Shown: positions 28,846 through 31,507 of the stretch, piece by piece
How positions within the stretch are numbered: position 1 is the first letter of the stretch
Layout: the number at the start of each line of letters is the position of its first letter
Origin: Anaerolineae bacterium
GTDB lineage: Bacteria; Chloroflexota; Anaerolineae; UBA4142; SHND01
Direction: 5' to 3'
Assembly (NCBI GenBank): GCA_021463195.1
Contig: JAJTXZ010000051.1
Location: forward strand, 1 to 34,749
Length of the DNA: 34,749 nt
Made by a program: the position numbers and the translations under genes
Notes under the pieces: generated by a model
The model's input: the letters and a program-made list of their open reading frames with translations, nothing else
Database searches by the model: none
Told to the model about the DNA's origin: nothing

Positions 28846-28909
28846 ATTGGCGCGCCTTGAATTCATCCGCAAAGCTCCTGATGCTTGGCCCAATTTTCAG
28901 ACCTTACAG

Positions 28910-28971
28910 AGTTCCAGGCCCCAAGGGTTTTCGAAAACCCTTGGGGCCTGGAACTTTGGATAATCACCAGA
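28910..28971 (+). repeat. Dispersed palindromic repeat, family I copy 2 (46-bp perfect palindrome)
   Basis: Positions 28910-28955 are a perfect 46-bp palindrome centred on GGGTTTTCGAAAACCC, with arms AGTTCCAGGCCCCAAGG and its complement. It continues to AATCACCAGA at 28962-28971. Copy 1 at 48-100 shares the core, the CTGGAA and the AATCACCAGA tail in the same orientation, but its arms are shorter. It would form a very stable hairpin or cruciform. Confidence 0.85.
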
Positions 28972-28980
28972 AATCCCCGC

Positions 28981-29008
28981 TTGACAAGTCCGCAGACGGG
29001 TATATAAT
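28981..29008 (+). promoter_or_regulatory. Consensus sigma-70 promoter of padR
   Basis: TTGACA (28981-28986) and TATAAT (29003-29008) are both perfect consensus hexamers, separated by 16 nt. This is the strongest promoter match in the window. The expected transcription start, near 29015, falls inside the left arm of the inverted repeat that follows, as expected for a promoter held down by a repressor. Confidence 0.85.
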
Positions 29009-29044
29009 CCTCCTTGAATAGTCAGACTTGACTATTCAAGGAGG
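29009..29044 (+). promoter_or_regulatory. Inverted-repeat operator of padR, including its Shine-Dalgarno
   Basis: Arms of 16 bp, CCTCCTTGAATAGTCA (29009-29024) and TGACTATTCAAGGAGG (29029-29044), match perfectly around GACT. The repeat starts directly after the -10 box and ends four bases before the padR ATG; the AAGGAGG at its right end (29038-29044) is the ribosome binding site. With a start near 29015 the RNA could still pair 10 bp, leaving most of the Shine-Dalgarno free, so a DNA operator for PadR autoregulation is the simpler reading. Confidence 0.8.
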
Positions 29045-29048
29045 ATGA

Positions 29049-29654
29049 ATGGATCACGAACTATTGGCGCTGGGCTTGTTAAAGCTTCAGAAAATGCACG
29101 GTTATCAGTTGAGCGATGTGGTGGACAAACGCCTCAGCCATTTGACCGACCTAAAAAAAGCGACGCTCTATAATATTCTCGCGCGCGCGGAAGCGCAAGG
29201 ATTCGTGACCAAGACCGTCTCGCGCGCGGGCAATCGGCCCGAACGCTTTATCTTTCAACTGACGCCGCACGGTCAAGCGCGCTTTCAAGAGCTGCTGCGC
29301 GCGAACCTGCAGCGCGCGCACGCCGCGTACTTTGCCGACGATATCGGCTTGTTATTTCTCAGCGAACTGCCCGCCGCGCAAGCGCGCGCCTTGCTCGCCG
29401 AAAAGCGCGCGAGCGTCGCGCGAACAATCGCCGAACTGGAGCGCGCGGTCGCGCGACACGAACCGAACACGCCCGCGTATTACACGCTGCGGCATCATCT
29501 GCTGCATTTACGCACCGAACGCGCGTGGCTCGCTGAATTGATGCGCAGCTTGAAACAGCGTTCGGTGCGCCAAGATATCTTGGCGTGCCTCGACGCCGCC
29601 GATGCAAACGCCGCCGCGTCGCAAAAAAACCGAAAGCCAAGTCCAAAAACATAA
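29049..29654 (+). CDS. PadR-family transcriptional regulator
   Basis: A 201-residue repressor-type protein. Residues about 1-85 are the PadR winged helix: MDHELLALGLLKLQKMHGYQL, a recognition segment with LKKATLYNILARAEAQGFV, and the wing RPERFIFQLTPHG. The C-terminal part (about 90-180) is helical and charged (LLAEKRASVARTIAELERAV, YYTLRHHLLHLRTERAWLAEL) and should form the dimer. PadR proteins usually repress their own operon and a transporter gene and respond to small toxic or phenolic ligands; an MFS transporter lies two genes on. AAGGAGG stands four bases before the chosen ATG. An overlapping ATG four bases earlier is out of frame. The operator-like repeat upstream argues for autoregulation. 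Confidence 0.9.
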   Translation: MDHELLALGLLKLQKMHGYQLSDVVDKRLSHLTDLKKATLYNILARAEAQGFVTKTVSRAGNRPERFIFQLTPHGQARFQELLRANLQRAHAAYFADDIGLLFLSELPAAQARALLAEKRASVARTIAELERAVARHEPNTPAYYTLRHHLLHLRTERAWLAELMRSLKQRSVRQDILACLDAADANAAASQKNRKPSPKT

Positions 29655-29683: not shown

Positions 29684-30076
29684 GTGGGTATTGTATTGAT
29701 GCTTCATTCCTTATGGCGCTGGGTTGTGCTCGCGCTCGCGGTCATCGCGCTGCTTAAATTCGCGCTCGGTTGGCTGCAAAAGAAAAATCCCGATACGCTC
29801 GACCGACGCCTGCTGCTGGCGTTCACCGCCTCGCTTGACCTTCAAGTCTTGCTCGGCATCATTCTCATCGTCAATTTATTTCTCACCGGCGCGTCGAATC
29901 GGACGGCGTTGGAACACACTATCGTCATGCTCGTCGCCGCCGTCGTCGCGCATACCAGCGCGATCTGGCGCAAACGCGCGGACAATCTCTTTTTACGCAA
30001 CAACGCGGCGATTGTGTTGGTGACGCTCCTGCTCATCATCGTCGGCGTTTCATCCGTAAACGGATGGCATTTCTAA
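29684..30076 (+). CDS. Small four-helix integral membrane protein
   Basis: A 130-residue membrane protein with four predicted transmembrane helices: about 8-30, 41-66, 75-92 and 105-126. Conserved-looking features are the opening LHSLWRWVVL, DRRLLLAFTASLDLQVLLG in helix 2 and EHTIVMLVAAVVAHTSAIW in helix 3, whose Glu-His and Ala-His pairs recall a family of small uncharacterised membrane proteins in Bacteroidota and Chloroflexota that are sometimes loosely called cytochrome b-like. I see no proof of haem binding. The start is GTG 29684, because GGAGG lies six bases before it; an earlier in-frame start would lie inside padR and add a very basic tail. Located 29 bp after padR, it is probably co-transcribed and controlled by it. 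Confidence 0.75.
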   Translation: MGIVLMLHSLWRWVVLALAVIALLKFALGWLQKKNPDTLDRRLLLAFTASLDLQVLLGIILIVNLFLTGASNRTALEHTIVMLVAAVVAHTSAIWRKRADNLFLRNNAAIVLVTLLLIIVGVSSVNGWHF

Positions 30077-30081
30077 AATAA

Positions 30082-30107
30082 CGCGCGGTATCCTTTCATA
30101 CCGCGCG
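30082..30107 (+). other. Hairpin between the membrane protein and MFS genes
   Basis: CGCGCGGTAT (30082-30091) and ATACCGCGCG (30098-30107) pair perfectly around a six-base loop. There is no T-run after it, so it is not a standard terminator. It may attenuate or stabilise the message between the two genes. Confidence 0.5.
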
Positions 30108-30124
30108 CGTATTCCTCAAAAAAT

Positions 30125-31507
30125 ATGCGGTCAAACCAAAGCGCGGATGCGTCGCCCGACAAATTGAATTTTAAACGCATCTTGCCGATTCTGATCATTG
30201 TGCTGATTGATTTGCTCGGCATGACCATTATCATTCCTTTGCTGCCGTTGTACGCGACCACGTTCGGCGCGGACGCAATGGTGATTGGATTATTGGGCGC
30301 GACCTATCCGGCGTTTCAATTTCTCGGCGCGCCGCTGCTCGGTCGTTTATCGGACCAGTACGGACGCAAACCGATTTTGCTCATCAGTCAACTCGGCACG
30401 CTCATCGGCTTTCTCACGCTCGGTTTCGCGGGCGCCTTATGGATACTGTTTCTATCGCGTCTCATTGACGGAATATCGGGCGCGAATATCGCCACCGCGC
30501 AAGCGGCGATTGCGGACAGCACAACCGAAAAAACGCGCACGCAAGGTTTAGGTTTGATTGGCGCGGCGTTCGGCCTCGGCTTTATTATCGGACCCATTAT
30601 CGCGTTCGCTGCGCTCGCGTTAACTCACAACGATTATCGCGCGCCCGCGTTCGTCGCCGCGTTCTGTTCGCTACTTTCGATTCTGCTCACCGCATTCTGG
30701 TTTCATGAAACGCGCAATCCCGCGCAAATCATGCCGCCAAATGGCAAAACGGCATTTTCCTTTGGCGCCATGTTCAAAGCGTTGGCGCATCCCGCGGTCG
30801 GCGCGCTGTTGATTTTGCTGTTCGCGCAGCAGTTGGCATTCGGCGGTTTTGAACAGCTGTTATCATTGTTTACGTTGAATCGGCTCGGCTTGAACGCGTC
30901 GGGCAATGCGGCGATTTTTGTTTTCGCCGGAATCATTATGGTGGCGGTGCAAGGCGGTTTCGTCGGCAAATGGAGCCGCCGCTATGGCGACCGCAAATTG
31001 GTCTTTGCCGGCTTGGCGCTCTTGGCGCTGGGTTTGGCGCTTATGGCGCTGACTCCACTGCTGCCGCCGCCGTGGTACAACCAAGCCGCGCTCGCCGCCG
31101 AATTGCGCGGCAGCCAAAATCCAGCCGTCGCGCCAAATCTCGCGATTGCGCTGCCGCCAGATGTCAACACAGGTTGGTTCGGTCTCGTGTGGCTGCTGGG
31201 CGCGATGATTCCGACCGCGATTGGCGGCGCGATGTTGCAGCCGACCTTGAACTCGTTGATTACCAAGCGCGTCGAACCGACCCAAGTCGGCGGCATTTTG
31301 GGCGTCAGCGTCGCCATGTTGAGCGCGGCGAATGCGCTGGCGCCAATTCTCGGCGGCGCGCTTTTCCAAGTCGCAGGCGCCAGCGCGCCGTTTTGGGCGT
31401 GGGCGGCGGCGCTCGGCATTTTGTTTGTGTTCGCTCTTGCGACCATCAAACCGGGGCGCGAAGAAAGCGCGCCAAAAGGATTGGCGCGCGCGCGCGCGAG
31501 TCATTAA
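30125..31507 (+). CDS. MFS transporter, DHA1/TetA-like
   Basis: A 460-residue inner-membrane transporter of the major facilitator superfamily with about 12 hydrophobic helices. The cytoplasmic motif A GRLSDQYGRKP is at 73-83. FLSRLIDGISGANIATAQAAIAD resembles the RxxxG-type motif B helix of drug:H+ antiporters. GAAFGLGFIIGPIIA matches the antiporter motif C (GxxxGPxxG-like). The order and lengths fit the TetA/DHA1 export group, so a proton-driven efflux role is likely; substrate unknown. It follows the PadR/four-helix pair, a common genetic setting in which PadR controls an exporter. A longer loop near 330-350 (PPPWYNQAALAAELRGSQNP) between helices 9 and 10 is somewhat unusual. Confidence 0.88.
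   Translation: MRSNQSADASPDKLNFKRILPILIIVLIDLLGMTIIIPLLPLYATTFGADAMVIGLLGATYPAFQFLGAPLLGRLSDQYGRKPILLISQLGTLIGFLTLGFAGALWILFLSRLIDGISGANIATAQAAIADSTTEKTRTQGLGLIGAAFGLGFIIGPIIAFAALALTHNDYRAPAFVAAFCSLLSILLTAFWFHETRNPAQIMPPNGKTAFSFGAMFKALAHPAVGALLILLFAQQLAFGGFEQLLSLFTLNRLGLNASGNAAIFVFAGIIMVAVQGGFVGKWSRRYGDRKLVFAGLALLALGLALMALTPLLPPPWYNQAALAAELRGSQNPAVAPNLAIALPPDVNTGWFGLVWLLGAMIPTAIGGAMLQPTLNSLITKRVEPTQVGGILGVSVAMLSAANALAPILGGALFQVAGASAPFWAWAAALGILFVFALATIKPGREESAPKGLARARASH

Follow-up and report, generated by a model that had tools for sequence, protein, structure and literature searches.

The padR gene lies in a 34,749-nucleotide stretch of Anaerolineae DNA (hereafter the window) behind a consensus promoter that runs into a perfect inverted repeat, and the question raised by this locus is whether the repeat acts on DNA, as the binding site of a repressor, or in RNA, where its two arms would pair with each other and hide the translation signal of padR. 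The repeat is very probably the cognate operator of the downstream PadR, through which PadR would autorepress a probably drug-inducible efflux operon. This reading is based on sequence, conservation, gene order and co-occurrence, from which we infer binding, repression, co-transcription and an inducer. The features of the control region are as follows.

28981–28986, plus strand: −35 hexamer TTGACA of the padR promoter (12/12 match over 28981–29008)
29003–29008, plus strand: −10 hexamer TATAAT, part of the same 12/12 match and aligned with the −10 sequences of orthologues
29007–29046, no strand: perfect inverted repeat of 18+18 bp with the loop GACT, read from the sequence
29009–29015, plus strand: CCTCCTT, outer left arm, complementary to the Shine-Dalgarno (SD) sequence; predicted to be untranscribed and not seen in the closest orthologues
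29016–29037, no strand: operator core GAATAGTCA-GACT-TGACTATTC, predicted PadR dimer site (TAGT-8N-ACTA), from orthologue conservation, uniqueness and co-occurrence
29038–29044, plus strand: SD sequence AAGGAGG of padR, in the right arm of the repeat
29049–29654, plus strand: padR, 201 aa, PadR-s1-type regulator (winged HTH and Vir_act_alpha_C), from Pfam and orthologues

The −35 and −10 hexamers are separated by 16 nt, and the full consensus match of the original prediction was borne out: among 11 promoter-like sites found between 27000 and 32000 (2.1 in all from shuffled sequences), this is the sole 12/12 match. Perfect 16-bp arms starting at the next base had also been described. The repeat is indeed perfect and has the loop GACT (29025–29028), but its 100% complementary arms, ATCCTCCTTGAATAGTCA (29007–29024) and TGACTATTCAAGGAGGAT (29029–29046), are 18 bp long and overlap the final AT of TATAAT; the 16-bp version alone starts at the next base. 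The right arm carries AAGGAGG for the padR start, with the ATG at 29049, as had been stated. By simple arithmetic, chance would yield about 10^-5 pairs of perfect 18-bp arms around a short loop in 34.7 kb, and a chance origin of the repeat is negligible. It is the only 100% complementary pair of at least 14 bp among the window pairs listed. A longer pair at 28907–28958 is 96% complementary and is part of a dispersed palindromic repeat of about 62 nt (TTCCAGRCCCCAAGGGTTTTCGAAAACCCTTGGGGYCTGGAA, then TAATCACCAG) at 28907–28974, which ends shortly before the padR −35 sequence. This dispersed repeat, REP- or MITE-like, has some 35–40 matching places in the genome and could keep transcripts of the glucose-6-phosphate dehydrogenase (G6PD) gene upstream from reading through.

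Orthologues of padR were searched for in 396 genomes of the class, which gave 69 matches, the best 52 having E values up to 1.5e-49; in a search of the contigs for PadR relatives, a single-protein query returned none and an alignment query returned 30. The region upstream of each padR was scored over the 18 consensus positions of the core, with 6900 dinucleotide shuffles as the control. The core, GAATAGTCA-N4-TGACTATTC, which is the inner 22 bp of the repeat, preceded 49 of the 52 closest orthologues with a score of at least 15 out of 18; the exceptions were L065, which apparently has a 5-nt centre, L133 and L135. The original prediction had named the absence or displacement of the repeat in orthologous loci as the finding that would count against it, and this is not what was seen. 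Over all 69 matches, scores of at least 15 and at least 16 were reached by 53 and 49 regions, respectively; the shuffled regions reached 15 in 6 cases and 16 in none of 6900, figures that overstate significance given the kinship among the genomes. The core was present in just 4 of the 17 weaker matches beyond the best 52, as would be the case if most of them belonged to other PadR clades, and the scores at 19 more distant, non-orthologous PadR genes of relatives were 9–14, which is the shuffle range, the operator being absent there. The presence of the core at orthologues and its absence at distant PadR genes indicate that the repeat belongs to this PadR clade. The limit of the motif-bearing clade is not sharp, and several lower-scoring PadR relatives are without the motif.

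The core, as [GA]A[AT]TAGTCA-N4-TGACTATTC or a close variant, lies upstream of padR in the window and in all nine of its best relatives, seven of which could be aligned to the window promoter and start codon. TTGACA was invariant across the alignment of eight orthologues. The orthologues come from further genomes, genera and families within the class, and named records place the PadR group in Chloroflexota, mostly in Anaerolineae. Promoters of near-equal quality adjoin the core in most orthologues; the distance from the −10 sequence to the core is 7–8 nt in many of them (7 nt in the closest) and 2–3 nt in another group. Class-wide conservation, together with the perfect 18-bp arms, in practice refutes the idea of a chance palindrome without function, whose probability is practically nil. 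The proposal that PadR regulates its own gene by binding the repeat as a repressor is supported by the same data, because the core accompanies the orthologues, mostly beside a good promoter, and is absent at non-orthologous padR genes.

The conservation also bears on whether the repeat works in RNA only, as a 5′-terminal stabilising hairpin or the remnant of an intrinsic terminator. A 9-bp stem would indeed stand at the extreme 5′ end of the predicted mRNA. However, no T-run follows the repeat in the window, and the letters themselves are conserved rather than just their pairing: TAGTCA/TGACTA and the core spacing are nearly fixed, and variants such as GGACT or GAACT break pairs. In addition, the same letters occur at the promoters of other genes. 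An RNA-only function is accordingly very improbable, and the operator reading is preferred.

Outside the core, excess left-right complementarity was observed over 53 sites at offsets 2, 4, 6 and 8 and was lacking at odd offsets; at offsets 2 and 4 the excess had p of about 0.0005 or less by shuffling. This alternating complementarity may reflect extended recognition or shared ancestry. The nine extra perfect pairs outside the window core are rare among orthologues, and the 18-bp perfection of the window is, from sequence comparison, best described as a conserved 9+9 core that has been lengthened locally. Long outer arms were found in few other orthologues (12 bp in L121, 8 bp in L131 and 5 bp in L130), far from start codons. 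In L121, whose core stands 74 nt upstream of the start codon, a perfect inverted repeat of 21 bp encloses the core and leads into TTTTTT, resembling an intrinsic terminator placed right behind the predicted transcription start.

The −10 sequence ends at 29008, and the transcription start is therefore expected at about 29015–29016, where the conserved core begins. The original prediction had suggested that RNA pairing of the arms also controls translation. RNA from 29009 or earlier folds into a stem of 16 bp in which AAGGAGG is hidden (−28.2 kcal/mol, z −5.7), whereas RNA from 29016 folds as a 9-bp hairpin with AAGGAGG single-stranded. In order-level orthologues the SD sequence directly follows the core as in the window, but the anti-SD CCTCCTT is missing. 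Translational control by RNA pairing was thus not supported, since CCTCCTT, unconserved in the order-level orthologues, lies between the −10 sequence and the predicted +1, and the SD sequence stays free in RNA that begins there. The mark of an SD-sequestering translational switch, a conserved anti-SD inside the transcript, was not found: order-level orthologues lack it, and in the window it precedes the predicted start. Because CCTCCTT is predicted to be untranscribed and the core hairpin frees the SD sequence, masking could matter in read-through RNA only. It is conceivable, though unlikely, that in this lineage alone there is a two-level switch, in which PadR acts on the DNA and the CCTCCTT arm hides the padR SD sequence in an mRNA hairpin, silencing padR, for example, only on transcripts that run in from G6PD. 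The masking stem of longer RNAs and the nine additional perfect pairs speak for such dual control; against it stand the predicted start, the retention of core and SD sequence without the anti-SD in order-level orthologues, and L121 and L131, whose long outer arms surround cores that stand 66–74 nt upstream of the start codon, at a distance from the SD sequence. If true, the two-level switch would mean that padR is translated solely from own-promoter transcripts.

In the preferred reading, a PadR dimer would bind the 22-bp core and cover about +1 to +22, whereby RNA polymerase would be excluded or its escape blocked, as judged from the position of the site. Repression rather than activation is suggested because the site lies over +1. 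PadR would repress padR itself and, via co-transcription, the following two genes, which are as follows.

29684–30076, plus strand: second gene, GTG start, predicted membrane protein of about 130 aa, supported by the gene order in most orthologous loci
30125–31507, plus strand: third gene, MFS drug:H+ antiporter resembling the Tet(A) group (Pfam MFS_1, 4.4e-53)

The gap between padR and the membrane protein gene is 29 bp and that between the membrane protein gene and the MFS gene is 48 bp; the three genes are probably co-transcribed. In the second of these gaps, at 30081–30108, a strong hairpin (GCGCGCGGTAT/ATACCGCGCGT) is terminator-like on the minus strand only. The ~130-aa membrane protein had no match in Pfam or NCBIfam. 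The best NCBIfam match of the MFS protein was tet_MFS_A_B_C_D (2.8e-51), below its cut-off; as the protein does not reach the NCBIfam thresholds of the named tetracycline pumps, no substrate is claimed. In the orthologous loci inspected, padR had an MFS gene downstream of it, and the order padR, ~130-aa membrane protein, MFS was repeated in most of them; in L005 and L007 no recognisable small gene was present within the stretch read. Reading of the sequences assigned the pump to a Tet(A)-like DHA1 type in the window and L008–L011 and to an EmrB/DHA2-like type in L003–L007. The operator is kept where the pump type differs between lineages, which indicates that the regulator retained its site while the pump type changed. 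An operator at its own promoter and linked drug-efflux genes, the two marks of an LmrR-like autoregulatory efflux operon, were both found. A toxic small molecule exported by the pump would probably bind PadR and cause its release, by analogy with LmrR-like systems (PMC4534193). The self-control of PadR proposed originally has thus gained a conserved operator, and the conserved operon and drug-efflux context had been missing from that account.

Copies of the site elsewhere were examined. The 22-bp core occurs once in the 4.7 Mb genome that contains the window, and a search of this genome with up to 3 mismatches gave chance-level sites only: no second site was better than 3 mismatches, and a read-backwards control gave as many 3-mismatch sites. 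The padR operon is therefore the only clear target in this genome. The related Anaerolineae genomes tested had one or two copies, in most cases one at padR. When the promoter-plus-core pattern was searched for over 400 genomes of the phylum, seven genomes matched and control matches were 0. Four of the seven are from one genus outside the class, whose family appears to be that of the Chloroflexaceae/Oscillochloris records according to upstream-sequence matches to named loci (e.g. L097 with L174). The sites in these genomes precede DHA2-type MFS pumps, MacB/FtsX-like permeases and a small membrane protein; a pairwise test of the latter against that of the window gave 39% over 51 aa (E 1e-4), a likeness that is suggestive only.

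Among 41 Chloroflexaceae genomes, exact TAGTCA-N4-TGACTA was present in 16 of the 18 with a PadR orthologue (E below 1e-40) and in 0 of the 23 without one. The co-occurrence had Fisher values of 1.5e-9 by genome and 1.5e-3 by genus, both optimistic, and overstating significance, given kinship. The site follows PadR in trans in this family, which is further evidence that PadR itself, and not a mere neighbour, reads the site. A repressor of another family, TetR or MarR type, encoded elsewhere and having padR merely as a regulated gene, has also to be weighed, since such repeats are used by many dimeric repressors and motif searches alone cannot name the binding protein. However, the motif tracks the PadR orthologue across the families of the class and Chloroflexaceae, including genomes in which PadR is encoded away from its targets, and no other candidate regulator was seen beside the sites in the loci inspected, which were not exhaustive. 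A repressor other than PadR is accordingly quite unlikely. From sequence, this PadR and its operator probably govern separate genes for MFS pumps, ABC permeases and small membrane proteins in Chloroflexaceae as well, and the palindrome is best regarded as a conserved PadR autoregulatory operator, ordinary in kind, with a lineage-dependent regulon. At the Chloroflexaceae padR promoters (L088–L099) the self-operator is degenerate and overlaps the −10 box (TATACTCA-N4-TGATTATTC), whereas the remote targets keep perfect copies; apparently, autoregulation has been tuned or rewired relative to control of the regulon.

A PadR clade of Chloroflexota, known mostly from uncultured genomes, thereby gains a precise operator, TAGT-8N-ACTA within a 22-bp palindrome, as well as a conserved efflux operon and a probable small trans-regulon in Chloroflexaceae. 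A defined operator makes genome-wide target prediction possible, and a regulator-operator pair of this kind is a candidate small-molecule biosensor. No earlier report of a TAGTCA/TGACTA operator with PadR was found in the open-licence literature.

The PadR protein of the window gave 55.5 bits with Pfam PadR (PF03551; E 5.6e-15; curated cut-off 27) and narrowly passed for Vir_act_alpha_C (PF10400; E 1.2e-4; 23.1 bits against a cut-off of 22.4). With 201 aa and this C-terminal domain, it agrees with the PadR-s1 subfamily (about 180–200 aa). The closest solved chain by sequence is 8jxk, deposited as 'Conserved protein', with PadR similarity over nearly the whole length (E 5.8e-18), a likeness in sequence alone. 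According to PMC6457526, Y20 and Y42 of Bacillus subtilis PadR are the signature DNA-contacting tyrosines and Leu65 is a contacting wing residue. Y19 and Y41, invariant in 10 orthologues, align with these tyrosines, and an invariant Pro (P64) aligns with the wing Leu65 position; the shift in residue numbers relative to PMC6457526 is presumably due to a six-residue tag.

The canonical PadR box, as quoted in PMC5050560 and PMC3506622, is ATGT-8N-ACAT. The original statement that the repeat is not this classical box holds for its letters, which are TAGT-8N-ACTA in the window and most orthologues, but not for its layout, which has the same 16-bp span. The window PadR agrees with B. subtilis PadR and other PadR-s1 proteins in its domain type, in having both signature tyrosines and in the inverted 16-bp half-site layout (4 + 8N + 4). 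On the other hand, B. subtilis PadR has the ATGT-8N-ACAT box and Leu65 in the wing, whereas the window combines TAGT-8N-ACTA with P64. PadR half-site letters can thus change while the 16-bp layout stays, and the accompanying invariant Pro raises a testable question of specificity.

LmrR-lmrCD of Lactococcus, in which LmrR is drug-responsive, and bcPadR1-BC4207 of Bacillus cereus are PadR-s2 autorepressors of drug-resistance membrane proteins (PMC4534193, PMC3506622). They resemble the system predicted for the window in that a PadR at its own promoter controls resistance-associated membrane proteins. They differ from its longer, PadR-s1-type protein with Vir_act_alpha_C in subfamily and in operator letters, and LmrCD is an ABC pump, in contrast with the MFS pump and ~130-aa membrane protein of the window. 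cdPadR1 of Clostridioides difficile likewise regulates itself through an inverted repeat close to its ORF whose letters depart from the canonical ones (PMC5050560). However, cdPadR1 belongs to PadR-s2, and its TACT-(N11-12)-AGTA motif is loosely spaced with 200 predicted matches in the genome, whereas the operator described here has nearly fixed spacing and a single site.
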